Shown here in pieces: positions 23,347 to 37,516 of a DNA stretch of 64,000 nt. Where the stretch lies: NCBI RefSeq assembly GCF_013410375.1, contig NZ_JACCFL010000001.1, positions 3,906,001 to 3,970,000 on the forward strand, given 5' to 3'. Position 1 is the stretch's first letter, and every line of letters starts with the position of its first letter. The translations under genes and the position numbers were made by a program. This stretch comes from Leifsonia shinshuensis (GTDB taxonomy: Bacteria; Actinomycetota; Actinomycetes; Actinomycetales; Microbacteriaceae). The notes under the pieces are model-generated. The model was not told the origin of the DNA and did no database searches. It worked only from the letters and a program-made list of their open reading frames with translations.

Positions 23347-24930
23347 CTAGATCAGGTGCTCCCGCGCAGCGTACGCGGCGGCAGCCGTGCGTGAACCGAG
23401 GCCGAGCTTCAGCAGGATGTTGGCGACATGCCGGTGGACCGTGTGCTCGCTGACCGTCAGTTCGCGGGCGATGTCGGCGTTCGTCATCCCGCGGGCGATG
23501 AGGCGGAGGACCTCGCGCTGGCGCGCCGTGAGGCCGGTCGGCTCCGTCGGGGAACGCACGCCGAGCTCGTCGAGGATCGCGGCGGCGGCGGCGCGCTGCT
23601 CGGCCGCTCCGGCAACGTCGCCGAGTGCCGCTAGGGCGTCAGCGAGGGAGCGCCGGCTGTGCGCCTCCTCGTAGCGCAGCCCGGACGCAGCGAACCACCG
23701 CACCGCCTCGCGCCACCAGGTCAGCTCGGGAGCCCCCGACGACACCGACCCGGTAGCGGCCGCCGCGAATCCGCGCAGCGGCTCCGTCGCCACCCGACGG
23801 GCGATGGCGTCGAGCTCGCCAGCGAGTCGTCGCGCGTCGTCCAGGTCGTCGATCGCCACCGCCGCGGCCACGGCCGTCGGCAGCACGGCCGCGCGGGCGA
23901 GCAGGTTCGCCGACGGGATCGCGTCGAGGAGGCCGGACAGGTCCAGCCACGCCGCCGCCGGCTCCCCCTGGTCGATCCGGAGGCGCGCCCGGCTGACGAC
24001 CGCCGGACCGAAGAACTCCGCCTGCCGCAGGAGGGCCTCCGCCTCCGCGAGCCGCCCCTGCCGGCGGCGCAGCTCGCCCAGCTCGGCGACCGCTTCGACC
24101 CGGGACTCCCGTCGGGACCCGGAGAGCGTGTCCAGCGTGCGACGCAGCTGGGCGTCCGCCACCGTCCACGAGCCGCGCGAGACGAGGATCGCGGCGTACT
24201 GGATGCGGCACACCGTGGTCAGCGGGGCGAGCTCGCGGGCCGCGCTCATCGCCTCCACCCGCGCGCACCACTCGGCCGCCCGCTCGATGTCCTGCGACTG
24301 GCGGCAGGCGACGATGAGCCAGCAGCAGATCTTGCCCATCCACATCGGGTCGGCGACGTCGCCCGCGGTCGCCGCGGCGACCGCTCCGTCGAGCAGGTGC
24401 ATCCCTGAGTCCACATCGCCCGCCATGACCAGCGCGAGCCCCGAGTACGCCTGGCCGGCGAACGCCAGATCGTCGTCGGCCAGCTCCCTGCCGATCGCGC
24501 CGGCGACGCGGGCGGACGCGAGCGCGGCGTCCGTGTCGTCATCGAGGGTGAGCGCGAGCTCCGCGCCGCGGACCGCATGCCAGCCGTGCTCCGCGTGAAC
24601 CGGGAGGCCCTGCAGGAGATCGGCGGCGCGCGCGTACCATCCCCGCGCGACGGCGGCTCCCCGCCCGAAGAGGACGGCGTCCCACGCCAGCGACGTCGCG
24701 GCGCGCGCGGCGCCCAGGTCGTCGCCGCGCTTGCGATACCCGCGGTAGGCGGCCTCGCGCGAGGCCAAGGATTCGTCCCCGTCGTCGAGCCACCAGTACG
24801 CCTGCGCCAGACCCTCCCGGGCCTCGGGCGCCTCATCGCCCTCCAGGGCCGCCAAGAACCCGCGGACGGCCTCGGCCCACGCCCCGCGTCGGAGGGCGTC
24901 CTGGGCCGAGGCAAGCGCCGGCGACTCCAT
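23347..24930 (-). CDS. LuxR-family transcriptional regulator with a TPR-like N-terminal region
   Basis: The last 60 residues form a LuxR/GerE helix-turn-helix (GLTARQREVLRLIARGMTN then VSEHTVHRHVANILLKLGL). The first 460 residues are Ala-rich helical repeats of TPR character with no ATPase P-loop, so it is not a full MalT/LAL protein. ATG 24930 was chosen, but a GTG at 24963 is equally possible since neither has a clear ribosome site. Its gene end is about 140 bases from the NCS1 start on the same strand, so it may influence that operon, but its signal is unknown. Confidence 0.85.
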   Translation of the reverse strand: MESPALASAQDALRRGAWAEAVRGFLAALEGDEAPEAREGLAQAYWWLDDGDESLASREAAYRGYRKRGDDLGAARAATSLAWDAVLFGRGAAVARGWYARAADLLQGLPVHAEHGWHAVRGAELALTLDDDTDAALASARVAGAIGRELADDDLAFAGQAYSGLALVMAGDVDSGMHLLDGAVAAATAGDVADPMWMGKICCWLIVACRQSQDIERAAEWCARVEAMSAARELAPLTTVCRIQYAAILVSRGSWTVADAQLRRTLDTLSGSRRESRVEAVAELGELRRRQGRLAEAEALLRQAEFFGPAVVSRARLRIDQGEPAAAWLDLSGLLDAIPSANLLARAAVLPTAVAAAVAIDDLDDARRLAGELDAIARRVATEPLRGFAAAATGSVSSGAPELTWWREAVRWFAASGLRYEEAHSRRSLADALAALGDVAGAAEQRAAAAAILDELGVRSPTEPTGLTARQREVLRLIARGMTNADIARELTVSEHTVHRHVANILLKLGLGSRTAAAAYAAREHLI

Positions 24931-24973
24931 CACGAGGCCAGCTTCGCCCGCGAAGCGCCTCACGGCAACGGTG

Positions 24974-25198
24974 TCAGACGGCGACCCCCGCCGCGAGCGA
25001 CTTCACGTCGCTCGTGGTCAACGGGTTGCCCGCGATGCCCCAGTCCCCGCTGCGCACCTCCTCGACCACGCACCACGTGACCGGGCGCATGTTCTCGCCC
25101 TCGATCGTGACCATGGCGTCGGTGAGGACCCGGATGATCTCCTGCTTCTGCTGCGCGGTGAACACGTTCTCGATGACCTTGACATTGATGAGCGGCAT
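24974..25198 (-). CDS. 4-oxalocrotonate tautomerase family protein
   Basis: The 74-residue protein begins MPLINVKVIENVFTAQQKQE. Proline 2 becomes the N-terminal catalytic base after Met removal, as in the tautomerase superfamily. AGGAGG is placed well before ATG 25198. It is about the normal subunit size. The substrate could be a 2-hydroxymuconate-like or halogenated acid; it lies next to no aromatic-degradation genes, so no pathway can be named. Confidence 0.88.
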   Translation of the reverse strand: MPLINVKVIENVFTAQQKQEIIRVLTDAMVTIEGENMRPVTWCVVEEVRSGDWGIAGNPLTTSDVKSLAAGVAV

Positions 25199-25344
25199 CA
25201 GTCCGCCTCCTCCTGGAATCGCTCCCGCCCATCGGGAGCACTACGTTCACGATCGCGGTCGCCGGGCGTGTGCCGCTTCGGCCGGATCGGCCATCTTGTT
25301 CGAAGGGAAGGAGTGGCCCGAACGGGCCATGCCGCGCGCACCGC

Positions 25345-26265
25345 CTACTCCGTGCCCACCAGGACGCGCTTCTCCTCCGCCGGCCGCGCTCCGCGACCGC
25401 GCAGTTCGCTGACCAGCACGCCGACCACCACGAGGAGCGCACCGACGACTGTGGTGAGCGGCATGCGGTCGCCCGCGAGCCGTCCGACGATGCCGCCCCA
25501 GACCGGCTCGCCCGCGTAGATGATCGTGGCGCGGGTGGGCGAGACGTGCCGCTGCGCCCAGTTCATGGTCAGCTGGATGAGGCAGCTCGCGATGCCGAGC
25601 CCGATCGCGGGGACCAGCCAGTCCCACGACGGCGCGGGCGCCGCCTCCCCGGTCAGCGGCATCGCGACGAAACCGAACGCGCCGGCGGCGAGCAGCTGCA
25701 CGATCGTCACGCCACGGGCGTCGACGCGGGAGGCGAACGCGCTGATCAGGATGATCTCCGCCGCGATCGGCACGGTGCTCACCAGCGTCGCGATCTCGCC
25801 GGGGCCGAGCCCGACGGTGAACGCCGCGGGACCGGCGATGAACAGCAGCCCGGCGAACGCGAAGCCGACGCCCACGAGCGTCATCCGGCGCGGCGGACGA
25901 CGGAGCACCAGCCACTGCAGCAGCGGAACCAGAGGAACGTAGAACGCGGTGATGAACGCGGACGTGCTGCTCGGGATGGTCGCCAGCCCGGCGGTCTGGA
26001 GCCCGTAGCCGAGAGCGATCGCCGCCCCGATCGCCGCGCCCGCGCCGAGCTCGCGCCACCGGATGCGCATCAGCGAGCGGTGGAACACCGCCACGCTCAC
26101 CAGCCCGGCCACAGCGAACCGCAGCCCGACGAAGAACCAGGGGCCGGTGTGCGCCATCGCCAGATGGACGATCAGGAACGTGGTCCCCCACAACGCCGTG
26201 ATCGCGATCAACGCAAGCTCGTACCGGCTCACGGAGAACCGGACACGCTTGGCGATGTGCAACAT
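25345..26265 (-). CDS. EamA/DMT-family membrane transporter
   Basis: About 306 residues with ten membrane segments in two EamA repeats (ITALWGTTFLIVHLAMAHTGPWFFVGLRFA; later MNWAQRHVSPTRATIIYAGEPVWGGIVG). Such proteins usually export amino acids or other metabolites. ATG 26265 was preferred because TAGGAT ends 7 bases before it, as in other leaderless genes here; ATG 26274 would add three residues. It is divergent from an XRE-cupin regulator whose ATG is only 31 bases away, so the two are almost certainly controlled together. Confidence 0.88.
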   Translation of the reverse strand: MLHIAKRVRFSVSRYELALIAITALWGTTFLIVHLAMAHTGPWFFVGLRFAVAGLVSVAVFHRSLMRIRWRELGAGAAIGAAIALGYGLQTAGLATIPSSTSAFITAFYVPLVPLLQWLVLRRPPRRMTLVGVGFAFAGLLFIAGPAAFTVGLGPGEIATLVSTVPIAAEIILISAFASRVDARGVTIVQLLAAGAFGFVAMPLTGEAAPAPSWDWLVPAIGLGIASCLIQLTMNWAQRHVSPTRATIIYAGEPVWGGIVGRLAGDRMPLTTVVGALLVVVGVLVSELRGRGARPAEEKRVLVGTE

Positions 26266-26296
26266 AATGCACATCCTATGGTGCAGAATAGTGCAC
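26255..26296. promoter_or_regulatory. overlapping divergent promoter with two inverted repeats
   Basis: ATGTGC-N8-GCACAT (26255-26274) and GTGCA-N6-TGCAC (26281-26296) lie side by side in the tiny gap between the exporter and regulator starts. Both share a GTGCA core and look like tandem binding sites for the XRE-cupin protein. Confidence 0.6.
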
Positions 26297-26866
26297 ATGC
26301 AACCCGGCGACACCAGCGTCCTGGCCCACCTCGGGGAGAACCTGCGCCGTCTGCGCCGCGACCGCTCGCTGAGCCAGGAGGCGCTCGCCCAGGCCTCGGG
26401 GATCAGCCGCCGCACCATCATCAACCTGGAGGCCGGCGAGACGAACGTCAGCCTGGTCGCCCTCGACCGCCTCGCCGGCGCGCTCGGTGCGACCTTCACC
26501 GACCTCGTCGTCGCCCACGTCGCCTCTGAGGAGCACCTCGACCCGGCGGAACTCGACGTCGCGGTGTGGCGCGGCACCGCCACCACGAGCATCGGCCGGC
26601 TCGTGGGAGCCGTCGCCGCTCGCTCGGAAGCACAGGTGCTCAGTTGGCAGCTCGCGCCGGGCGAGCGCTACGACGCCGACCCGGACCCGGCCGGATGGCA
26701 CGAGATCGCCGTCGTCCTTTCGGGTGCGGTACGGCTGCGCCTGGACGCTGGCGGGGACCTCCTCCTCCGCCACGGCGACCACGCGGTCTTCTCGAGCGCC
26801 CAGCCCTACACGTACGAGCCGGAGGGCGAGGAGGGCGCCCGCTTCCTGCGTATCGTCGTTTCCTGA
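26297..26866 (+). CDS. XRE-cupin transcriptional regulator
   Basis: The 189-residue protein joins an N-terminal XRE helix-turn-helix (LGENLRRLRRDRSLSQEALAQASGISRRTIINLEAGETN, roughly 13-52) to a C-terminal cupin (GWHEIAVVLSGAVRLRLDAG, HGDHAVFSSAQPYTYEP). This is the SutR/PuuR-like layout that senses a small metabolite. The ATG at 26297 has no ribosome site. It probably represses the divergent exporter gene and itself. Confidence 0.9.
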   Translation: MQPGDTSVLAHLGENLRRLRRDRSLSQEALAQASGISRRTIINLEAGETNVSLVALDRLAGALGATFTDLVVAHVASEEHLDPAELDVAVWRGTATTSIGRLVGAVAARSEAQVLSWQLAPGERYDADPDPAGWHEIAVVLSGAVRLRLDAGGDLLLRHGDHAVFSSAQPYTYEPEGEEGARFLRIVVS

Positions 26867-26975
26867 CGGCCGACGTTCTGCGCCGTATCCAGCCCCGACT
26901 GCGCCCCGCGAATCCGAACGCACAGCTGCCCGTCGTGGTTCCGGACGCGCCTCTACCGGCTCCGCGCCCGCCCGC

Positions 26976-28484
26976 TCATGTGCCGTGCGCGTCGGGCAGC
27001 CCTTCCGACCTCCCCAGCCGCGCGTACGCCTCCGGCTGTCTCCTCCGCAGCCGCAGCGCCCACCACACTCCGACCGCGCCCAGGACGAACAGCGGGCCGA
27101 CCAGTGCGAGGTTGATCCAGCCGGTCATCGCGGTGAGGAGGTCGAAGTTGGTCAGCATGAGCCAGAGGCCGACGGCCAGCCCCAGGCCGCCGAGCGCCGG
27201 CGCGATGAACACCCGGAAGGGCGAGTGGCCTCGACGGTCCCTCCAGAAGAACCGGATGACCGCCAGCATGCAGAGCGCCTGCAGGAAGACGATGCCCACG
27301 ATCCCGACACCGTTGGTCCAGAGCAGCAGCTGGAGGTACGGGTCGCCGCCCAGCACGAGCGTGATCAGGATGAGCAGCACCGATCCCCCGCTGACCACGA
27401 GGCTCGCCAGGTACGGCGACGCGAAGCGCGGGTGGGTCCGTGCGACCGACCGCGGCAGCATCCCGTCACGGCCGAGGGCGAACATGTAGCGCGAGGTCGC
27501 GTTGTGGAACGCGAGCGTCGCCGCGAAGATGCTGGTCAGCATCAGAATGTCCATCGTGACCTTCGCCCACGGGCCGAGGTACGAGCCTGCGAGCATGAAG
27601 TACAGGTTCTGGAAGTCGGCCGACCGCGCGTACTTCTCCAGCCCGTCCACGCCGAGCGCAGCCGTCGCGACCCAGGTGATGAACCCGTAGAAGAGCGGGA
27701 GGAACGCGACCGCGAGGTACGTCGCGCGCGGCACCGTCCGGGCCGGCCGTTTCGCCTCCTCCGAGTAGATCGCGGTGCTCTCGAAGCCGAGGAAGGCTCC
27801 CAGCGCCAGCACGAACATTCCGCCGGAGGCCGGGTTGAAGACGTTGGCGGGTGCGAACGGCTCCGCGCTGAAGTTCTTCGCGCCGTCGGTCGCGAGCACC
27901 GCGACCGCGAGGACGACGAGGATCAGCACCTCCAGCCCCATCAGCACGCCGAGCAATCGGGCGCCGACCGTGATCTGCCGATAGCCGAGGACGCCGACGG
28001 CTGCGGCGCCGGCCAGCGCGAACACCGACCAGTGGATGTCGGCCCCCGTCAGATCCTTGATCGAGCTGTTCGCGTAGAAGCCGAGGAAGCCGAAGAAACC
28101 GAAGCAGATCAGTGCGTACGAGACGAGCGCGACGATCGCGCTCCCCGCGCCTGCCGGGCGGCCGAGGCCCTTCCCGATGAACGCGTAGAACGCTCCGGCG
28201 CTGCGGACGTGCTGCGAGAACGCGGTCAGCCCGGCGGCGCAGAGCAGGTACACCACTCCGGAGAACACGTACGCCCCCGGCGCCCCGATCCCGCCGAGGT
28301 TGAAGGCGAGCGGTGCGGCGCCGGCCATGACCGCGAGCGGCGCCGCCGCCGCGACCACGAAGAACACGATGTCGGTGACGCCGAGGGACCCGCCCTTGAG
28401 GGCGCCGGTCGTGGCGGCGCCGGTCTGCGCCGCCGCTGGCGCCTGCCGCACCTCGGCGCCCGGCGCCGTCGTCTCGCCGCTCAC
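26976..28484 (-). CDS. APC-superfamily permease next to an amidase
   Basis: The 502-residue protein has about 12 helices and landmarks shared with the other two APC permeases in the window: AAAAPLAVMAGAAPLAF, LGFESTAIYSEEAKRPARTVPRATY, and FHNATSRYMFALGRDGMLP. GTG 28484 overlaps the amidase stop (GTGA), so the pair is one operon; the much longer frame upstream is a shadow of the amidase gene. It probably imports the amide or amine used by that enzyme. Confidence 0.9.
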   Translation of the reverse strand: MSGETTAPGAEVRQAPAAAQTGAATTGALKGGSLGVTDIVFFVVAAAAPLAVMAGAAPLAFNLGGIGAPGAYVFSGVVYLLCAAGLTAFSQHVRSAGAFYAFIGKGLGRPAGAGSAIVALVSYALICFGFFGFLGFYANSSIKDLTGADIHWSVFALAGAAAVGVLGYRQITVGARLLGVLMGLEVLILVVLAVAVLATDGAKNFSAEPFAPANVFNPASGGMFVLALGAFLGFESTAIYSEEAKRPARTVPRATYLAVAFLPLFYGFITWVATAALGVDGLEKYARSADFQNLYFMLAGSYLGPWAKVTMDILMLTSIFAATLAFHNATSRYMFALGRDGMLPRSVARTHPRFASPYLASLVVSGGSVLLILITLVLGGDPYLQLLLWTNGVGIVGIVFLQALCMLAVIRFFWRDRRGHSPFRVFIAPALGGLGLAVGLWLMLTNFDLLTAMTGWINLALVGPLFVLGAVGVWWALRLRRRQPEAYARLGRSEGLPDAHGT

Positions 28485-29905
28485 AGGGCCGGCCACCAGT
28501 CCGGGTTCGAGGTGAGCGCGAGCTCGGCCTCGGCGGCGGCGCCGATCCGGAAGACCGTGGGGTCGTCGTAGGTGCGACCGACGACCTGCACGCCGGTGGG
28601 GACGCCGTTGGCGGCGCGTCCCGACGGGACGGCGAGTACGGGCACGCGGCCGACGACGTTGAATGGGAGCGTCATCAGCTGGGAGAACACCTCGGCGCTG
28701 TCGGTGCAAGCCGCGTCCGCGGGCATCCCGGTGTTCGCGATGGTCGGGCAGACCAGTGCGTCGTACCGGTCGAGCACCGCGCCGAGCGGGCGGTAGAACC
28801 CGGTCTCGGCCGCCAACCCCTCGGCGAAGCTCCCCGCGCTCGAAGCGGCCTCGATGAAGGCGCGCGTGTAGGGCATGAGCTGGGCGACGCGCGCAGGATC
28901 CTCCTCGCCGACGCTCTCGATGAACGGACCCATGATGCCGCCGAAGTGCGCCCAGGCGATCTCGAGCACCTTCTCCGGCGTCCACGGGAGGTCGACCTCC
29001 TCGACCACTGCACCGGCAGCCCGCAAGGCATCGGCGAATGCGGTGGTGTTCGCGACGACCTCGGCGGTCGGCGCGTAACCGCCGAGCGTGTACGACAGGG
29101 CGATCCGCATCCCGGTCAGGTCGGTCACCTCGCCGCTGACCCGCACGGTGGGGCGCAGGGAGGCCTGGTCGCCGGACCACGGCCCCGCGATGACATTCTG
29201 CAGCAGGGCGGTGTCGGCCACGCTGCGAGCCATCGGGCCGTCGGCGCAGTAGGTGTCCTGGTTGAACGGCGAGAGGCCGGGAATGCGGCCGAAGGGCGCT
29301 TTGAAGCCGACGACGCCGCAGTACGACGACGGAATGCGGATCGAGCCGCCGATGTCGGAGCCGGTGGCGAGGACCGTCTCCCCCGCCGCCAGCACCGCAC
29401 CCGACCCACCGGACGATCCACCGGGGGTCATCGCGATGTTGTGCGGGTTGCGGGTGATGCCCCACAGGGCGGTGTGCGTGACCGGTGCGCAGCAGAACTC
29501 GGGGGTCGTGGTGCGGCCGTGGACCACGGCGCCGCTCGCCAGGATGCGGGAGATGATCGGGTGGGTCTCGTCGGCGATCCGCCCCTGCTCCAGGAGGGAC
29601 CCCTCCTCGGAGAGCCGACCGGCGATCGGCTGCTCCTCTTTGAGCATGAGCGGGATGCCCTCCAGCTCGCGAGCGGTGCCGTTGCGGTAGCGCGCCTCGG
29701 ATTCGCGCGCCGCCTCGTACGCGTCGTCGAGGAGTTCCTCGGTGACGGCCCCGACGACCGGCTCGACGGCGCGGGTGCGTGCGACGACGGCGTCCAGCAG
29801 TTCCACGGGCGAGAGCTCGCCGCTTCGGAACAGCGCCACGGCGTCGGTCGCAGTCAGATGGTGGAGGCTCATGGATCGCCGCTCACGGGTGGATTCCTGC
29901 GTCAA
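28481..29905 (-). CDS. amidase-signature family amidase
   Basis: The 474-residue protein has the Ser-cisSer-Lys triad of the family: Lys in PLMLKEEQPIAG, the Gly/Ser segment MTPGGSSGGSGAVLAAG, and the nucleophile in GSDIGGSIRIPSSYCGVVGFK. TTG at 29905 was chosen because AAGGAG lies 9 bases upstream; an internal ATG (29872) has no such site. It hydrolyses a carboxamide to acid and ammonia. It is divergent from a TetR gene across tandem palindromes, so amide supply probably controls it. Confidence 0.9.
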   Translation of the reverse strand: MTQESTRERRSMSLHHLTATDAVALFRSGELSPVELLDAVVARTRAVEPVVGAVTEELLDDAYEAARESEARYRNGTARELEGIPLMLKEEQPIAGRLSEEGSLLEQGRIADETHPIISRILASGAVVHGRTTTPEFCCAPVTHTALWGITRNPHNIAMTPGGSSGGSGAVLAAGETVLATGSDIGGSIRIPSSYCGVVGFKAPFGRIPGLSPFNQDTYCADGPMARSVADTALLQNVIAGPWSGDQASLRPTVRVSGEVTDLTGMRIALSYTLGGYAPTAEVVANTTAFADALRAAGAVVEEVDLPWTPEKVLEIAWAHFGGIMGPFIESVGEEDPARVAQLMPYTRAFIEAASSAGSFAEGLAAETGFYRPLGAVLDRYDALVCPTIANTGMPADAACTDSAEVFSQLMTLPFNVVGRVPVLAVPSGRAANGVPTGVQVVGRTYDDPTVFRIGAAAEAELALTSNPDWWPAL

Positions 29906-29930
29906 GAGATATCGCTCCTTTGCGAACCTT

Positions 29931-29955
29931 GGTACTAAGTACCGTACTAAGTACG
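29931..29955. promoter_or_regulatory. tandem TetR operators
   Basis: GGTACTAAGTACC (29931-29943) and CGTACTAAGTACG (29943-29955) are two near-perfect palindromes sharing one base and the core GTACTAAGTAC. They lie between the divergent amidase and TetR genes and are strong operator candidates for the TetR protein. Confidence 0.75.
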
Positions 29956-29973
29956 ATCTATTACCCTACTTCC

Positions 29974-30624
29974 ATGGCCCCACGTCAAGCGCCCCGTGCT
30001 CGAGACCCGCGCCCGCGTGGGTCGCTGGACCGTCGCACCGTCGCAGCGACCGCCATCGACGTGATCGAGGAGCACGGGATCGACAGCCTCACCATGCGTG
30101 CCCTCGCCTCGGAGCTCGACTGCGGCACGATGACCCTCTACAGCCACGTACGCAACCGCGACGACCTGATCGTCGCCATCCTCGAGCGGCTGATCGAGGA
30201 GCTGGACGTCGTCGCCCACACGTCCCATGCCGATGACGGCTGGCGCGACGTCCTGGTCCGCCTCTTCGGCGCCTACCGCGAACTCGCCGAACGCCACCCC
30301 CACGCGTTCGAGCTCCTCGCCCTGGCCCCCTACGACGCCGAGCCGGTCGCCTCCCACCTCGAGTCGGTGCTCGCCAGCCTCGAACGCGCGGGACTGTCGC
30401 CCGACGACGCCCGGCGGGTCCTGGGCATCTCCGACGCTTTCGCGACAGGCTTCCTGGTCGTCCGGGCACGCACGACGACCCGCCCTGGCGCTGTGGCCGG
30501 CGCCTCCACCCCGCTCGGAGACCTGCGCTCGGTCGGCATGTACGAGCGCGGCATCGAGGCGATCCTCGCGGGGATCGAGGGGACACTCACCGGCGTGACG
30601 ACGGACCACCGCTCCAGCATCTGA
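29974..30624 (+). CDS. TetR-family transcriptional regulator
   Basis: The 216-residue protein has an N-terminal TetR DNA-binding domain (VAATAIDVIEEHGIDSLTMR, then ASELDCGTMTLYSHVRNRDDL) and a helical ligand domain. It resembles the TetR/AcrR members with a TetR_C-like part. The ATG at 29974 is the first start after the operators. It very likely represses the divergent amidase-permease operon. The gene ends 15 bases before a hairpin duplicated from the tRNA-Met locus, which can serve as its terminator. Confidence 0.9.
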   Translation: MAPRQAPRARDPRPRGSLDRRTVAATAIDVIEEHGIDSLTMRALASELDCGTMTLYSHVRNRDDLIVAILERLIEELDVVAHTSHADDGWRDVLVRLFGAYRELAERHPHAFELLALAPYDAEPVASHLESVLASLERAGLSPDDARRVLGISDAFATGFLVVRARTTTRPGAVAGASTPLGDLRSVGMYERGIEAILAGIEGTLTGVTTDHRSSI

Positions 30625-30639
30625 CGGATCACACGAAAG

Positions 30640-30666
30640 AACGGCGGCTGATCATCAGCCGCCGTT
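30640..30666. terminator. duplicated hairpin terminator downstream of the TetR gene
   Basis: A perfect 12-bp stem with a 3-base loop, identical to the one after tRNA-Met (35203-35229). On the + strand it follows the TetR stop by 15 bases; on the - strand it follows the amidohydrolase gene and the tRNA fragment. Confidence 0.85.
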
Positions 30667-30724
30667 CCCCGTGTTTTCACGCTATGTAGCGAGGGCGGGA
30701 CTCGAACCCGCGACACCCCGATCA
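30640..30724. repeat. left copy of an 85-bp direct repeat: tRNA-Met 3' half plus terminator (att-like site)
   Basis: Bases 30640-30717 match 35203-35280 at 77 of 78 positions, with weaker identity for about seven more bases. The copy holds the tRNA terminator hairpin (30640-30666) and a 36-base fragment equal to the 3' end of the tRNA-Met gene up to the anticodon loop (30687-30722). The fragment lacks the 5' half, so it cannot make a tRNA. Its end touches the stop codon of the neighbouring amidohydrolase gene. This is the arrangement left by site-specific integration into a tRNA gene. Confidence 0.9.
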
Positions 30725-32374
30725 GCCGGCGTCGACGGTCGACGCGGGGCTGACGGACGGCCGGCCGCCGACCACGGTCAGGATCACAGGGGACTCCGCG
30801 AAAGCGTCTGGATCGGTGGTGAGCGGGTTGAGCGCCCACACGGTCAGGTCCGCGGGCAGCCCCGGCTCGATCCGACCTCCCGGTTCGCCGACGCTGCGCC
30901 AGTACTCGCTCGTATAGCCCTCGACGGCCGCCCGCGCGCTCAGCGACTGGTCGGGGCGGACGGGCTCGACCTCCTCGCGTCCGGCGGGGCGGCGCAGCTG
31001 GGCGGCCGCGACGACGCCGCGTGGGTCGTACGGCGCGATCGGCCAGTCGGAGCCCAGGGTGAGGATGGCGCCGCGGTCGCGGAGGTCGCGGGTGCGCCAC
31101 GCCCGGTCGGCGCGTTCGTCGCCGAGCCGCTGCGACCAGTTGTCGGTGTGGTCGGCGCGCGTGTACAGCGTGCAGTGGGTGGGCTGCATGCTGGCCGCGG
31201 CGCCCGACGCGATGATCTCGTCGAGCACCTCGTCGGGCAGCGTCTCGATGTGCTCGATGCGGTGCTGCACGTCGCTCGCAGGCAGCGCCGACAGCGTCTC
31301 GGCCACGAACGCGATGCCCTTGTCGCCGATCGCGTGCGTCGTGGTCGGGATGCCGTGCTCGTGGAAGAAGCGCACGGCCTCCCGGTACTCGGCCGGGTCG
31401 AGCCAGATGGACTGGGTGGACTCGCCCTTGGTGTCCGGCTCGAAGAGCCACGCGGTGCCGTTGTCGATGGTGCCGTCGATCATCAGCTTGACGCCGCGCA
31501 CGTACCAGCGGCGGCCGGCCAGCTCCTGGAACCGCAGGTGGCGCTCGAGGTCCTCGCGCGTGAAGCCCGGGAACACCGACGGCGAGATGCGCAGGCGGAT
31601 CGGGAGGTCCTGCCGACGCTCCAGCTCCTCCAGCAGATCGAACGAGTCCGCTGCCATGAGGTCGAGCATCTGGCCGGCGACGATGCCGGTCGCGGCCATC
31701 CCGCCGAGCAGGTCGGCGAGCTGCTGCACCCGGTCGTCGAAGGTCAGCTCGGGGACGTGCGAGAGCACCAGGTCCTGCGCCGAGAACTCGTAGAGCATCC
31801 CGTTCGGCCGGCCGTCTGCGTCGAGCCCGAGCGCGGACGCGTCGGAGAAGACCTCGTCGCCCCGCACGCCGGCCGCCTCGATCGCGGCGGCCGAGGCGAG
31901 CGCCGAGTGGCCGTCGAACAGGGTGATGAACAGCTTGCGGCCTCCGTCGATGCCGGTCAGCAGATCGTTGCCGAACTCGCGGCCGCCGAACGCCGCTGGG
32001 TCGAGACCCCAGGCGAGGATCCAGTCCTCGTCAGCCGGGCGCTCGGGGACGTAGGCGGCGATGGTGCTTCGCACGGCCTCCCGCTCGGTGATCCCCGAGA
32101 GGTCGAGGCCGCGCGTGAGCTGCAGCCCCATGATCGGGTGGATGTGGGCGTCGACGAAGCCGGCGCTCACCGTGGCGTCGCCGACGTCGAGGACCTCGGC
32201 AGCGGCGGCGGGCCAGCCCGCGGCATGCGCACCGGCCTCGGAGGCGATGCCGACGATGATCCCGTCGCGGACGGCGATCGCGGTGCGCTCCGGGGACCTC
32301 CCCGATGCGGAGGCGATGACCTCGGGCGTGAGCACCGTGTCGGCGATCAGGAGCAAGTCGATCGTGTCGGTCAT
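30722..32374 (-). CDS. amidohydrolase family 3 (YtcJ-like) metal-dependent hydrolase
   Basis: The 550-residue protein has the family layout: VSAGFVDAHIHPIMG with the HxH metal pair, VKLMIDGTIDNGTAWL with the bridging residue region, TTHAIGDKGIAFV, HRIEHIETLP and GSDWPIAPYDPR. YtcJ-like enzymes hydrolyse amides or carbamates, with mostly unknown substrates. ATG 32374 overlaps the permease stop (ATGA) and has AAGGAGG 6 bases before it. The stop codon lies exactly where the att-like repeat begins, so the gene ends at the island border yet appears complete. Confidence 0.9.
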   Translation of the reverse strand: MTDTIDLLLIADTVLTPEVIASASGRSPERTAIAVRDGIIVGIASEAGAHAAGWPAAAAEVLDVGDATVSAGFVDAHIHPIMGLQLTRGLDLSGITEREAVRSTIAAYVPERPADEDWILAWGLDPAAFGGREFGNDLLTGIDGGRKLFITLFDGHSALASAAAIEAAGVRGDEVFSDASALGLDADGRPNGMLYEFSAQDLVLSHVPELTFDDRVQQLADLLGGMAATGIVAGQMLDLMAADSFDLLEELERRQDLPIRLRISPSVFPGFTREDLERHLRFQELAGRRWYVRGVKLMIDGTIDNGTAWLFEPDTKGESTQSIWLDPAEYREAVRFFHEHGIPTTTHAIGDKGIAFVAETLSALPASDVQHRIEHIETLPDEVLDEIIASGAAASMQPTHCTLYTRADHTDNWSQRLGDERADRAWRTRDLRDRGAILTLGSDWPIAPYDPRGVVAAAQLRRPAGREEVEPVRPDQSLSARAAVEGYTSEYWRSVGEPGGRIEPGLPADLTVWALNPLTTDPDAFAESPVILTVVGGRPSVSPASTVDAG

Positions 32375-33894
32375 CGCTGCCCTCCTTCGGCGACCCCGTC
32401 GCCCGAGACGGCGTCGCCCGCTGTGTCCAGGCTCGCAGGAACGACCTCCGCTCCTCCGATCCGGGCGAAGACGTCCGGTCGCGTGCGCTTCCACACCGTG
32501 GCGAGCACGACTCCGACGAGGAACACGATCGGGATGGTGGCGAGCACGATCCCGTCGACGACCGGGCCGCCCGCGGTCAGCAGGTCGAGGTCGGCGCACA
32601 GCAGGTACAGCACGACGGTCATCGCGACGAGAGCGACGATCGCGGACGGCATGACATACCACTTGCGTGCGACCTCGCGGTGCCGGACGAAGTAGACGAT
32701 GACCGCGGCGCAGGTCAGCGCCTGGAGGACGATGATCCCGATCACTCCGGGGCTGTTCACCCAGAGGAGCAGCTGCAGATAGGGGTCGCCGTTCACGATC
32801 GCGAAGAAGATCACGACCACCAGCGCCAGCACGGTCTGGAAGGCGCCCGCAGCCGCCGGCGAGCCGAAGCGGTTGGTGCGGTGCAACGCGTGCGGGAGGG
32901 CCCCGTCGCGGGCGAGCGCGAACGTGTAGCGGTTGATCGCGTTGTGGAACGCCAGCTGCGAGGCGTACACGCTGCTGAGGATGAGGATGTACATCGTCAG
33001 CTCGGCCCACGGGCCGAGGTAGCGGCCGGCCTGCTGGAAGACGAGCCCGGCGGTGTCCTTGCCCGCGGCCGCCTGCACGTGGCTCTCGCCGACCGCGATG
33101 ACGATCGCCCAGACCACGAACCCGTAGAACACCGCCATGAACGCCACAGAGATGTAGGTCGCGCGCGGGATGGTGCGGTGCGGCTCGCGGGCCTCCTCGC
33201 GATAGAGCGCCGTCGACTCGAAGCCCATGAAGGCCGCGAACCCGAAGCCGAGGATGCCGAACATGCCCGGCGCCAGGAAGGCGTTCGGCGAGAAGGTGCC
33301 GAACGTGACGCCTTCCGCCCCGCCGTGCAGGAGCACCGCGACGGCGAAGACGACGAGGATCAGGGCCTCCAGGCTCAGCAGGACACCGAGGACCTTCGCG
33401 CCGACGTCGACACCGCGGTAGGCGACGGCGAACACGGCGAGGATGCCGACGAGGGCGATCGCCCACCACGGCACGTCGATGCCGAACTCGGTCTTCAGCA
33501 GGTCGTGCCCTTGCGCACCCATCAGCCCGTAGAGCCCGATCTGGAGGGCGTTGTACGAGAACAGGGCGACGAACGACGAGCCGAGGCCCACCCGCTTGCC
33601 GAGCGCCTCCGTGATGTAGGTGTAGAAGCCGCCGAGCGCCCGGACGTGCCGCGTCATCGCCATGAAGGCGATCGCGAAGATGCCGAGGATCACGCCGGCG
33701 AACGTGTAGACCAGCGGCGCCCCCACGCCGCCGATCAGGATCGCCAGCGGGGCGACCCCGGCGACGATGGTGAGCGGGGCGGCGGCCGAGATCACCATGA
33801 AGACGATCCCTCCGGTGCCGAGGGCGTTGCGGCGGAGGGCTTCGGTGGGCGGTGCTGCCGCCGCCTGCGGCTGGTTGTCTTTCGTGAGTTCCAT
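32371..33894 (-). CDS. APC-superfamily permease inside the tRNA-Met island
   Basis: The 507-residue, 12-helix protein shares family landmarks with its two paralogs here (AAAPLTIVAGVAPLAI, MGFESTALYREEAREPHRTIP, FHNAINRYTFALARDGALP). AAAGGAG lies before ATG 33894. It is the first gene of a two-gene operon with the amidohydrolase, and probably imports the compound that enzyme hydrolyses. LacI-type sites precede it. Confidence 0.9.
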   Translation of the reverse strand: MELTKDNQPQAAAAPPTEALRRNALGTGGIVFMVISAAAPLTIVAGVAPLAILIGGVGAPLVYTFAGVILGIFAIAFMAMTRHVRALGGFYTYITEALGKRVGLGSSFVALFSYNALQIGLYGLMGAQGHDLLKTEFGIDVPWWAIALVGILAVFAVAYRGVDVGAKVLGVLLSLEALILVVFAVAVLLHGGAEGVTFGTFSPNAFLAPGMFGILGFGFAAFMGFESTALYREEAREPHRTIPRATYISVAFMAVFYGFVVWAIVIAVGESHVQAAAGKDTAGLVFQQAGRYLGPWAELTMYILILSSVYASQLAFHNAINRYTFALARDGALPHALHRTNRFGSPAAAGAFQTVLALVVVIFFAIVNGDPYLQLLLWVNSPGVIGIIVLQALTCAAVIVYFVRHREVARKWYVMPSAIVALVAMTVVLYLLCADLDLLTAGGPVVDGIVLATIPIVFLVGVVLATVWKRTRPDVFARIGGAEVVPASLDTAGDAVSGDGVAEGGQR

Positions 33895-34011
33895 TGTGCC
33901 CGGCTCCTTTGCTCGAGACGACGCGGTTCGGGGATAGCGGGCGTTCCGTGACGGCTCTTGTCGAGGTGTGTGTGGCTCCGACGCTAAGCGGGGAGTGTTT
34001 CCGACGTGTCA

Positions 34012-34080
34012 CGAATCGCGATCGATTTCGTGAAGACTAATCGATTCACCACACGAAAAACAAGATGCCTAATCGATTTC
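34012..34080. promoter_or_regulatory. three AATCGATT-type sites, candidate LacI operators
   Basis: The gap between the lacI-like gene and the permease gene contains AATCGATT at 34039-34046 and 34071-34078, and GATCGATT at 34020-34027 inside a longer imperfect palindrome (34012-34030). LacI-family regulators bind such short palindromes with a central CG. They are well placed to control the permease-amidohydrolase operon. Confidence 0.55.
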
Positions 34081-34091
34081 TCGATGCGAAA

Positions 34092-35102
34092 TCAGTGGTC
34101 CTGCGCGATGCCCTGCGTCGACTCCCGCTCGATGAGGTCGATCGGGACGGGGACGCGACGTCCCGCCGGCTCTCCGTCGAGGGCCGCGATCAGGGCTTCC
34201 ATGCACCGGATGCCCATCTCCCGAGGGTGCAGGTCGAGGGAGGTGACCGTGGGCTGCATCACGCTCAGCGCGTCCGAGTCGACATAGCTGGCGACGAGAA
34301 CGTCCCGGCCTGGGACGAGCCCGGCCGCGCGGATCGCCTCCACCGCCACGATCGCCACGCCCTCCGGGGCCGAGATGATCGCGTCGGGCCGGCCAGGGCC
34401 GGCCAGCAGGTCGTCCAGCTCACGCCGGACTACCTCCATCGGAGCGTCGAACCAGCTGAGCACCCGCCGCTCGGGGATGCCGCGCTCGGCGCACCAGGCG
34501 GCGTATCCGCGCGCCATGTCGCGCCCCCACGCCATCGACGGGTCCGGGAGCATCACAGCCGGATGGCGGCTGCCCCGCTCCCACACGTGATCGAGCAGTC
34601 GCCGCATCGCGGAATCGTGGTCGCCGTAGACCACGGCGAACGGCTCCGGCGTACCCGCGGGAGGGTCCTCGCCCGTGACGACCGGCTTCGGCCCGGCGAG
34701 CAGACGCTCGGTCAGAGGGTCGCCGTCGACCGGGTCGATGATGAGGAATCCGTCCAGTTGATCGGTGATCCCCGGCTGGGCGAATGCCGGAGGGAGAAGC
34801 GTGACCAGCATTCCGGCCTCTTTGGCCCGCTCGACCGCGCCGAAGGCGACGTCCATGTAGTAGCGGAAGCTCAGCGTCAGGTCGGGAACGCTGAGGCCGA
34901 CGGTTCCCGTGCGCGCCGTCCGGAGGCCGCGCGCGATCAGGTTCACCGAGTACTCGAGCTCGGCGGCGACCTCCCGGACACGCTGGCGCGTCTCGTCCGA
35001 CATGCGGCCTTTTCCGCTCAGCGCCTGGGAGGCGGTGGCGCGTGATACGCCGGCGCGGTCCGCCACGTCCTGCAGCGTCACCGTGCGCGTGTCGGTCCCC
35101 AT
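34092..35102 (-). CDS. LacI-family transcriptional regulator
   Basis: The 336-residue protein has the LacI headpiece (TLQDVADRAGVSRATASQAL, hinge VNLIARGLRTARTGTVGL) and a periplasmic-binding-like sensor domain (DALSVMQPTVTSLDLHPREMG). ATG 35102 is favoured over the adjoining GTG because TAGACT ends 6 bases before it, the leaderless pattern seen elsewhere in the window; no ribosome site is present. It lies upstream of the permease-amidohydrolase pair on the same strand and likely represses it. Confidence 0.92.
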   Translation of the reverse strand: MGTDTRTVTLQDVADRAGVSRATASQALSGKGRMSDETRQRVREVAAELEYSVNLIARGLRTARTGTVGLSVPDLTLSFRYYMDVAFGAVERAKEAGMLVTLLPPAFAQPGITDQLDGFLIIDPVDGDPLTERLLAGPKPVVTGEDPPAGTPEPFAVVYGDHDSAMRRLLDHVWERGSRHPAVMLPDPSMAWGRDMARGYAAWCAERGIPERRVLSWFDAPMEVVRRELDDLLAGPGRPDAIISAPEGVAIVAVEAIRAAGLVPGRDVLVASYVDSDALSVMQPTVTSLDLHPREMGIRCMEALIAALDGEPAGRRVPVPIDLIERESTQGIAQDH

Positions 35103-35202
35103 CACGCCAGTCTAAGAGGCGCGGCGGATGCGACCGCCGAACTGATGCGGAGGAGTCTCCGAAGGCACGACGTCAGGGAAGGGGAAAGGAACACAACGAG
35201 AA

Positions 35203-35229
35203 AACGGCGGCTGATCATCAGCCGCCGTT
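35203..35229 (-). terminator. terminator of the tRNA-Thr/tRNA-Met transcript
   Basis: A perfect 12-bp inverted repeat with a 3-base loop lies 20 bases past the tRNA-Met 3' end on the - strand and is followed by TTTTCTC. This is the original of the copy at 30640. Confidence 0.88.
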
Positions 35230-35287
35230 CCCCGTGTTTTCAAGCTATGTAGCGAGGGCGGGACTCGAACCCGCGACACCACGATTA
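35203..35287. repeat. right copy of the 85-bp direct repeat (att-like site in tRNA-Met)
   Basis: This copy lies within the intact tRNA-Met gene and its terminator. The region between the two copies (about 4.56 kb) holds LacI, APC permease and amidohydrolase genes. No integrase gene remains. Confidence 0.9.
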
Positions 35288-35323
35288 TGAGCCGTGTGCT
35301 CTAACCACCTGAGCTACCCCGCC
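35250..35323 (-). tRNA. tRNA-Met (CAT), elongator type
   Basis: 74 bases fold as a cloverleaf: acceptor GGCGGGG pairs with CCTCGCT (two G-U pairs), the D arm begins GCTCAGGTGG, the anticodon loop is CTCATAA with CAT at its centre, and the T arm is GCGGG-TTCGAGT-CCCGC. The sequence resembles actinobacterial elongator tRNA-Met; tRNA-Ile2 (lysidine-modified CAT) is a less likely alternative. CCA is not encoded. It lies 31 bases downstream of tRNA-Thr, so they are probably co-transcribed. Confidence 0.93.
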
Positions 35324-35354
35324 GGGGCCTCCCGTCGTCGCGACCGGGAGACGG

Positions 35355-35426
<72 letters not shown>

Positions 35427-35565: not shown

Positions 35566-36522
35566 TCACGCGGCCTTGGCGGCCTCCGACGCGCCGTCGA
35601 GCGCGGCCAGCTCGTCGGCGGTCAGTTCGAGGTCCACCGACGCCAGGAGGTCGGGCAGCTGCTCCAGGGTGCGGGCGCTCGCGATCGGGGCGGTGACGGT
35701 CGGCTGGGCGGCGAGCCAGGCCAGCGCGGTGGTCGCGACCGAGGCGCCGTGGGCGGCCGCGACCTCGTCGAGGGCGGCGAGCACGCTGCGGCCGGTCTCG
35801 TCCAGGTACTTGGCCGCGCCGCCGGCGCGGGCGCTGTCCACGGTCACGCCGTCGCGGTACTTGCCGGTCAGGAAGCCGGCGGCGAGCGCGAAGTACGGCA
35901 TCACGCCGAGGCCCTCGCGCTCGGCCAGCGGGCGGTACTTCTCCTCGTAGGAGCGCTCGACCAGGTTGTAGTGCGGCTGGAGGGCGACGGCGCGGTGCAG
36001 GCCCTCGCGCTCGGTGATGGCGAACCACTCCTCGATGCGCTCCGGGGAGTAGTTGGAGATGCCGATGTGGCGGACCTTGCCCGCGTCCACGAGACCCGAC
36101 AGCGCGGCGACGGTCTCCTCCAGCGGGACCGACGGGTCGTCGAAGTGGGCGTAGTAGAGGTCGATGTAGTCGCTCTGCAGGCGCTCGAGGGAGGCGTCGG
36201 CGGCGCGGCGGATGTTGTCGGCAGCGAGGCCCTTGAAGTCGGGGTGCTGGCTGACCTTGGTCGCGAGCACGACGTCGTCGCGGCGGCCGCGCGCCGAGAA
36301 CCACTCGCCGAGGATGCTCTCGGAGTCGCCGCCGGTGTTGCCCGGCACCCAGGCCGAGTAGCCGTCGGCCGTGTCCACGAAGTTGCCGCCGGCCGCCGTG
36401 TAGGCGTCGAGCACGGCGAAGGACGTGTCCCGGTCGGCGGTCCAGCCGAAGACGTTTCCGCCCAGTGAGAGCGGGAAGACCTGGAGGTCGGAGGTTCCGA
36501 TGGCGCGGCGCGGTGAAGTCAT
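35566..36522 (-). CDS. aldo/keto reductase
   Basis: The 318-residue TIM-barrel oxidoreductase shows the catalytic tetrad: Asp and Tyr in NFVDTADGYSAW, Lys in VLATKVSQHP and His in YYAHFDD. NADPH-site residues appear in PIASARTLEQL. ATG 36522 was chosen because AAAGGA lies upstream. It reduces an aldehyde or ketone, or oxidises the alcohol. It is a single-gene unit with its own terminator, and the substrate is unknown. Confidence 0.92.
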   Translation of the reverse strand: MTSPRRAIGTSDLQVFPLSLGGNVFGWTADRDTSFAVLDAYTAAGGNFVDTADGYSAWVPGNTGGDSESILGEWFSARGRRDDVVLATKVSQHPDFKGLAADNIRRAADASLERLQSDYIDLYYAHFDDPSVPLEETVAALSGLVDAGKVRHIGISNYSPERIEEWFAITEREGLHRAVALQPHYNLVERSYEEKYRPLAEREGLGVMPYFALAAGFLTGKYRDGVTVDSARAGGAAKYLDETGRSVLAALDEVAAAHGASVATTALAWLAAQPTVTAPIASARTLEQLPDLLASVDLELTADELAALDGASEAAKAA

Positions 36523-36649
36523 TCCGTGATCCTTTCGTGGCTGTCGTTCCACGCTAACGCGGGCGGCCGGAGGCTATTCCGAATGTGTCGAAGATGTGGG
36601 GAGACGACCGGCGCGGCACTGCTGTGGAGGGCAGCCCTATTGTGGAGGG

Positions 36650-37516
36650 ATGGCTCCGTCCCCGTCGCCCGCGCCGGAGCGAGCGCTCTCCGCCGACTGC
36701 GCGTCCTGCTCGGGACTCTGCTGCGTCGCCCTCGCCTTCGCGCGCTCCGCGGACTTCGCGTTCGACAAGCCGGCCGGCGAGGAGTGCGTCAACCTGGAGG
36801 ACGGCTTCGGGTGCCGAATCCACCCGCAGCTCCGCGAGCGCGGCTTCAAGGGCTGCACCGTCTTCGACTGCTTCGGCGCGGGCCAGCTCGTCACCCGGCA
36901 CACGTTCGGCGGCCGGTCCTGGCGCGACGACGCGGGCGTCCGCGCGGAGATGTTCGCCGTGTTCCCGATCGTCCGCCAGCTCCACGAACTGCTCTGGTAC
37001 CTCCGCGAGGCGCTCGCGATGCCGGCTGCGGCGCCGCTCCACGCCGCGCTGCGGAGCGCCTGGGATGAGGTCGCGCACGCCGCGGACGCTGCGCCCGCCG
37101 ACATCCTCGGCCTCGACGTCGACGAGCTCCGCGACCCGGCGGCGCGGCTGCTGCGGGAGGCCGCGCGCCTGACCCGCGAGGCCGCCCTCCGCGAGCGGAC
37201 CGCCGCCGCGAGCACCGCCACCCGCCGCGTCAAAGCGTCCCGCCTGCACCCGGGCGCCGACCTGCTCGGCGCTGACCTGCGCGCCGCCGACCTCCGCGGC
37301 GCCGAGCTGCGCGGAGCCCTCCTCATAGGGGCGGACCTCCGCGACGCCGACCTCAGCGCGGCCGAGCTGATCGGCGCCGACCTCCGCGACGCCCGGCTCC
37401 ACGGCGCCGACCTCGACCGCGCCATCTACCTCACGCAGCCCCAGCTCGACGCGGCGCAGGGCGACGCCCGCACCCGCCTGCCCGCCGCGCTGCACCGCCC
37501 GGCGCACTGGAGCTGA
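36650..37516 (+). CDS. Cys-cluster (YkgJ-like) protein fused to pentapeptide repeats
   Basis: The 288-residue protein has an N-terminal CASCSGLCC followed by [17 protein letters not shown] and GCTVFDC, the CxxCxxxCC pattern of YkgJ-type metal-binding domains. Residues about 195-265 are A(D/E)L-type pentapeptide repeats ([19 protein letters not shown] and so on), forming a right-handed quadrilateral helix. ATG 36650 is placed 6 bases after TATTGT, so the transcript is probably leaderless. No partner gene is apparent. It may bind iron or zinc; a function cannot be named. Confidence 0.75.

Follow-up and report, generated by a model that had tools for sequence, protein, structure and literature searches.

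A short integrase-less islet between tRNA-Met copies in Leifsonia shinshuensis, probably derived from site-specific integration

We analysed a 64,000-bp window of the Leifsonia shinshuensis genome (positions 3906001-3970000 of the 4.42-Mb single contig, coded G000), in which the interval 30633-35285 is bounded by two copies of the 3' part of tRNA-Met. Three minus-strand genes, encoding a LacI-family regulator, an APC permease and an Amidohydro_3 hydrolase, fill nearly the whole interval. We think it likely that this islet originated from site-specific integration at the anticodon loop of tRNA-Met, that its integrase was lost and that it now resembles a cis-mobilizable element (CIME). A previous reading of the DNA, made from the sequence only, had left the choice between a decayed island, a cassette moved in trans and a product of recombination between two islands. 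The decayed island, in its CIME-like form, fits the data best, and the other two are less favoured.

The repeat and the enclosed genes

The islet is framed by a direct repeat (D2) of 90 nt, whose copies lie 4,563 bp apart and agree at 86 of 90 positions (96%). On recount, four mismatches were located at 30637, 30639, 30680 and 30718. The next best ungapped match of the 90-mer elsewhere in the window reached only 45/90, and a chance origin of the repeat was therefore excluded. Each copy runs from the anticodon loop of tRNA-Met(CAT) to the 3' end of the gene and on through a short spacer and a palindromic terminator hairpin. This hairpin is strong, with a folding energy of -29 kcal/mol (z -6.4) in one copy and -29.5 kcal/mol (z -6.8) in the other. 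The tRNA gene is intact at one end of the interval, and at the other end a 3' fragment resides in like orientation, at which ARAGORN called no tRNA. Only one mismatch (30718) affects the tRNA part. It is found in the displaced copy, where it disrupts a pair of the anticodon stem, and the intact gene retains the sequence of the genus. Such a change is expected, since the displaced copy has been freed from tRNA function. The sequence-only reading had described bases 30640-30717 as a repeat with one mismatch in 78, containing the tRNA-Met 3' half and its terminator and exhibiting the topology of tRNA-targeted integration. The first two points were confirmed by the recount (only 30680 falls into this stretch), by ARAGORN and by the folding of the hairpin, while the position of the intact gene and the fragment supports the third.

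The stop codon of the hydrolase gene (30722-30724) overlaps the final base of the repeat, as had also been noticed before. The idea that the junction supplied this stop codon and thereby shortened the hydrolase was rejected, because seven full-length relatives (86-98% identity) have 547-553 amino acids compared with 550 and the 98% relative ends with identical residues. The Amidohydro_3 match stops at residue 539 of 550, and the tRNA fragment touches nothing but the stop codon. The three genes had been regarded as a coherent unit, and this is supported by their recurrence as a group in the genomes G011, G236 and G392. In the gap between the LacI and APC genes of G000 and of these three genomes an ATCGAT core is present. 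The sequence AATCGATT occurs only twice in the window, both times in this gap, and may represent LacI operators. The genes and the possible operators together point to a unit that would take up and hydrolyse, under the control of LacI, an amide- or N-acyl-like compound.

Features of the islet and its surroundings (positions in the window)
Feature	Position	Strand	Remarks
Intact tRNA-Met, anticodon CAT	35249..35323	-	ARAGORN; Rfam RF00005 at 35250-35323
Attachment (att)-like copy at intact tRNA-Met: tRNA 3' part, spacer, terminator hairpin	35196..35285	-	D2, recount
Displaced att-like copy: tRNA-Met 3' fragment (anticodon loop on), spacer, hairpin	30633..30722	-	86/90 identical to the other copy
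Terminator-like hairpin downstream of tRNA-Met	35199..35233	-	
Hairpin of displaced copy, between convergent hydrolase and TetR genes	30639..30667	.	
LacI-family regulator, 337 aa	34092..35105	-	PF00356, PF13377
Two AATCGATT sites in LacI-APC gap, possible LacI operators	34039..34078	.	
APC amino-acid permease, 507 aa	32371..33894	-	PF13520, PF00324
Amidohydro_3 (YtcJ-type) hydrolase, 550 aa	30722..32374	-	PF07969; YtcJ is the database name of relatives
Flank: TetR-family regulator adjoining displaced copy	29980..30624	+	PF00440; 90% ortholog in G016 at another locus
Flank: APC permease and amidase	26976..29905	-	With TetR, block 91% identical to one at another G016 locus
Conserved side: tRNA-Thr(GGT)	35353..35426	-	
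Conserved side: aldo/keto reductase (AKR)	35566..36552	-	PF00248

The tRNA-Met site in the genus

The locus was compared among 28 Leifsonia genomes, G000 included. A 135-base query consisting of tRNA-Met and the terminator gave matches in all of them and strong ones in 27; in G023 (110 contigs) the query matched only other tRNA genes, at about 80% identity or below. At each of the 27 loci read (the window and 26 others) tRNA-Thr lies beside tRNA-Met, followed in 25 of them, window included, by the AKR gene (exceptions G003 and G027). This side is conserved in the genus and the opposite side varies in most species. Blocks of the variable side are common to G001 and G012 and to G011 and G013, and other pairs share a few genes. 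A conserved stretch follows beyond the variable region, at a distance from tRNA-Met of approximately 43 kb in G000 and of 83, 149, 153 and 193 kb in G006, G024, G015 and G020, respectively. It is split into two pieces in G007 (approximately 121 and 164 kb) and has the same orientation in all six genomes. In G010 and G016 it is located on a contig other than that of the intact tRNA, and G014 was not among the matches.

Additional 3' fragments of tRNA-Met were detected in 11 of the 28 genomes. The crossover place of the islet is common to six other genomes, as the fragments of G000, G004, G015, G016, G017, G020 and G021 start in the anticodon loop. Fragments of five genomes (G007, G016, G018, G022, G026) start upstream of it, G016 having both kinds; two integrases with different crossover places would leave two such classes. 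G000, G004 and G021 share TGATCG at the junction. The hairpin was duplicated together with the tRNA part in most copies, those of G017, G004, G021 and G022 excepted. The fragment of G007 (L038:2906-10846), which is not on the contig of the intact tRNA, is accompanied within 8 kb by genes for an amidohydrolase (40% identity) and an APC permease (41%) that are related to the window's.

Tyrosine integrases reside at the site in some relatives. A first family was found in G016, 160 bp from tRNA-Met and 53 bp from a fragment (two open reading frames, ORFs), and in G020, 3.1 kb from tRNA-Met. An integrase of a second kind is present in G017, 77 bp away from the fragment there. Both scanned members of the first family possess PF00589 and an arm-binding domain, and the G017 integrase has PF00589 without that arm domain. 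Integrase remnants at the site were identified in G008, G017 and G027, the last with a further profile match about 11 kb from tRNA-Met. Arm-like direct repeats in their exact form are present in the loci of G010, G016, G018 and G027. Thus, the postulated site of site-specific insertion proved to be a hotspot in the genus.

Nine genomes carry the intact tRNA and a fragment on the same contig, which excludes the fragments of G007 and G016. These islands measure 4.6 kb (G000), 23 kb (G004), 46 kb (G015), 41 kb (G017), 21 kb (G018), 89 kb (G020), 5.9 kb (G021), 1.0 kb (G022) and 55 kb (G026). A PF00589 match between tRNA and fragment was obtained only in G017 and G020, the other seven islands having none (serine recombinases were not searched there). 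The threshold was E <= 0.01 for eight islands; G004 gave five matches at E <= 0.001, all on other contigs. The integrase-less state is hence common at the tRNA-Met site.

Two other short islets are noteworthy. The 5.9-kb stretch of G021 (L050:9520-15452; GC content 58.9%) contains one 1331-aa ORF, whose NACHT match is marginal and whose PADLOC match is weak and partial, and is possibly a defence-type islet without integrase. In another genus, Herbiconiux sp. SYSU D00978 (L154:77-3379) carries tRNA-Met and a 3' fragment 3.2 kb apart, which enclose a 526-aa ORF, the only one scanned, with Excalibur, B_lectin and GmrSD_C matches.

The claim that the interval of the window lacks a recombinase held for integrases: none of the nine PF00589 matches of G000 (E <= 0.01) lies in it, the nearest being about 384 kb away, and its genes encode LacI, APC and Amidohydro_3 proteins. 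Three of the nine matches were placed beside tRNA-Ser(TGA), tRNA-Ser(GCT) and tRNA-Leu(TAA). Since these are other tRNA genes, no resident tRNA-Met integrase is evident in G000. Two of the remaining matches are presumably Xer-like. An integrase 62% identical to that of G020 is situated by tRNA-Ser(TGA) in G000 (L122:1501-3081 = G000:63822-65402), G007, G012 and G013, and the G020-like integrases make up one family with different tRNA targets.

Origin of the islet

On the preferred explanation, the tyrosine integrase of an incoming element would have exchanged strands at the anticodon loop of tRNA-Met. The gene would have been restored by the 3' half and terminator that the element brought along, and the original ones would have been displaced to the far end, so that the two copies correspond to the left and right attachment sites (attL and attR). 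The LacI-APC-amidohydrolase unit probably arrived with the element and would have been left between the att-like ends when the integrase and the arm-binding sites were lost after integration. What we see would then be the decayed, CIME-like rest of an element, located at a hotspot where turnover is high. In favour of this explanation are the repeat with its topology, the hotspot, the crossover place common to G000 and six other genomes, the integrases at the site in relatives and the sporadic occurrence of the hydrolase.

Several observations weigh against this course of events, among them the neighbourhood of the three placed integrases. Neither a profile made from the relatives' integrases nor tblastn revealed an integrase remnant in the window, and an arm-like repeat, sought in one form with up to three mismatches, was not found there. 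For this reason the parent element is not visible. The GC content of the islet (70.2%, versus 69.9% and 71.0% in the flanks) is ordinary, and the codon-use distances of its genes fall within the range of the window's 46 longer genes; these distances are approximate, because every gene was removed from the pooled counts before comparison, the three islet genes as well, although they had not been part of the pool. GC content and codon bias, which had been proposed as a check, thus did not mark the islet as foreign. The fragment of G021 is short and imperfect (36 of 38 positions). Finally, no empty site was found, i.e., in none of the 28 genomes does tRNA-Met adjoin the TetR gene. This is because the far flank on the TetR side is strain-specific and itself a mosaic.

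The mosaic became apparent by comparison with G016 (blastn matches with a query start below 35200 and a length above 150). Each of the window blocks 23347-25334, 25345-26870 and 26987-30615 recurs whole on a G016 contig of its own, at 82, 90 and 91% identity, respectively. In G016 the second block starts some 50 bases beyond a tRNA-Ser, and a tRNA cluster is located roughly 4.5 kb from the third. The only close orthologs of the TetR and amidase genes in the genus set (90% and 94%) are those of G016, on a contig other than that of its tRNA-Met. When the G016 stretch around the TetR block was used as query, its flanks matched elsewhere in G000 (about 2.16-2.19 Mb) and the TetR block alone matched at the window. 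Operon-sized blocks, three in window positions 23347-30615 and two of them near tRNA genes in G016, seem to move between tRNA-linked variable regions. Elsewhere in the window, a nine-fold 15-base periodic repeat (37238-37432) lies within the gene 36650-37516; we take it to resemble pentapeptide-repeat proteins.

The hydrolase is sporadic. Close orthologs of it exist in two of the 28 genomes, G000 and G011 (73%), the next being at 45% in G022. In a family sample, nine of 398 genomes, G000 included, contained the amidohydrolase at E <= 1e-140 (only the three best candidates per genome were scored). Among the best 120 of 2254 protein-database relatives, of which 21 were aligned, one of 98% identity belongs to a Leifsonia shinshuensis, two of 89% and 88% to two other Leifsonia, and several to metagenomes. 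In viral contigs, a 32-base sequence from the 3' part of tRNA-Met had no exact match, and the LacI protein had no relative. In G011 the unit resides in a 7.3-kb stretch (L042:7480-14806) about 3 kb from tRNA-Met, without extra tRNA copies and with different neighbours. G013 (L044) does not have this stretch, and its two convergent flanking genes are 16 bases apart in the alignment.

These data bear on a later replacement, in which the tRNA copies are relics of an older island whose content was exchanged for the operon by homologous or illegitimate recombination, or in which two islands recombined through the ends common to them. The mosaic flank agrees with it, and so does G011: as the stretch absent from G013 is not bounded by tRNA copies, the unit can enter a genome without site-specific ends. 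However, the unit of the window abuts the displaced copy exactly at the start of the anticodon loop, with no residual island sequence at that end, and we regard a replacement as unlikely.

About equally unlikely is a minimal cassette that is still mobile, i.e., a unit that never had an integrase and was recombined in trans by integrases of other elements using the anticodon loop of tRNA-Met. The operon occupies almost the entire interval and leaves no room for a decayed integrase, seven of the nine same-contig islands have no PF00589 match, including the short ones of G021 and G022, and the Herbiconiux islet is similarly small. Yet the integrase-less islands of 20-55 kb (G004, G015, G018, G026) look like decay too, G000 has no evident integrase directed at tRNA-Met, the displaced copy is altered near the crossover, and the cassette was not found between att copies anywhere else. 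A broader proposal, which we consider speculative and improbable, is that tRNA-Met in Leifsonia and its kin serves as a cassette dock. Recombinase-less, operon-sized pieces, with a tRNA 3' half and in most cases a terminator at their end, would be exchanged by the integrases of passing elements. Most islands at the site (seven of nine here have no PF00589 match) would then lack an integrase by design rather than through decay, and each docked operon would be insulated by the terminator of the repeat.

That the unit already stood beside tRNA-Met in the genus ancestor and was lost in most lineages, the repeat being unrelated, is very improbable: the location in G011, where the proteins of the unit share 69-79% identity with those of the window, much like the flanking core genes (67-83%), and the closer hydrolase relatives in Leifsonia outside the 28 genomes might suit it, but close orthologs are confined to two genomes, the nearest relatives G006, G020, G010, G016 and G007 (in a 25-taxon tree of three flank proteins, from which G003 was dropped as it had no AKR match, and which did not include G023 and G027) have no close ortholog, the neighbours in G011 differ, and the units of G236 and G392 have no tRNA-Met within the 20 kb read.

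Relation to known elements

CIMEs are described in PMC5704250 as elements flanked by attL and attR without integration or transfer genes, which derive by deletion from an integrative and conjugative element (ICE) or an integrative and mobilizable element (IME) and are mobilized in cis once accretion with another element of that site has taken place. By this description the islet is similar. It retains att-like ends, putatively attL and attR given the direct repeat with its tRNA topology, and adjoins a tRNA gene whose 3' end receives other elements too; it contains no integration gene (no PF00589 match) and no transfer genes, only those for LacI, APC and Amidohydro_3. However, its cargo is much smaller than a decayed conjugative element would suggest. 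No remnant of a parent ICE or IME was found in the window, nor was a parent element found.

The islet also resembles the tDNA islands of Islander, for which PMC4383910 calls for a tRNA gene with its 3' fragment at a distance of 2-200 kb, both correctly configured and oriented, and for an integrase ORF inside. Gene and fragment are arranged in this order, orientation and distance here, the site is of the anticodon-loop type and no Pfam domain of a coding gene is overlapped by the fragment, but the integrase ORF is absent. A further parallel is provided by the ssrA islands of Dehalococcoides, where, according to PMC3146451, several islands with variable cargo operons, some without integration module, were pushed outward from one RNA gene. 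Those islands depend on a serine recombinase and a transfer-messenger RNA target, whereas the Leifsonia site is associated with tyrosine recombinases and tRNA-Met.

The islet is a small and well-marked case of an already known genome scar. Here a metabolic operon has become fixed behind a tRNA gene, and in this genus one tRNA-Met site took up many different insertions. The data suggest that searches requiring an integrase would miss most islands at this site, here seven of nine. If short islands of this kind can be excised in trans, the transfer of operon-sized pieces without a recombinase of their own would become testable.

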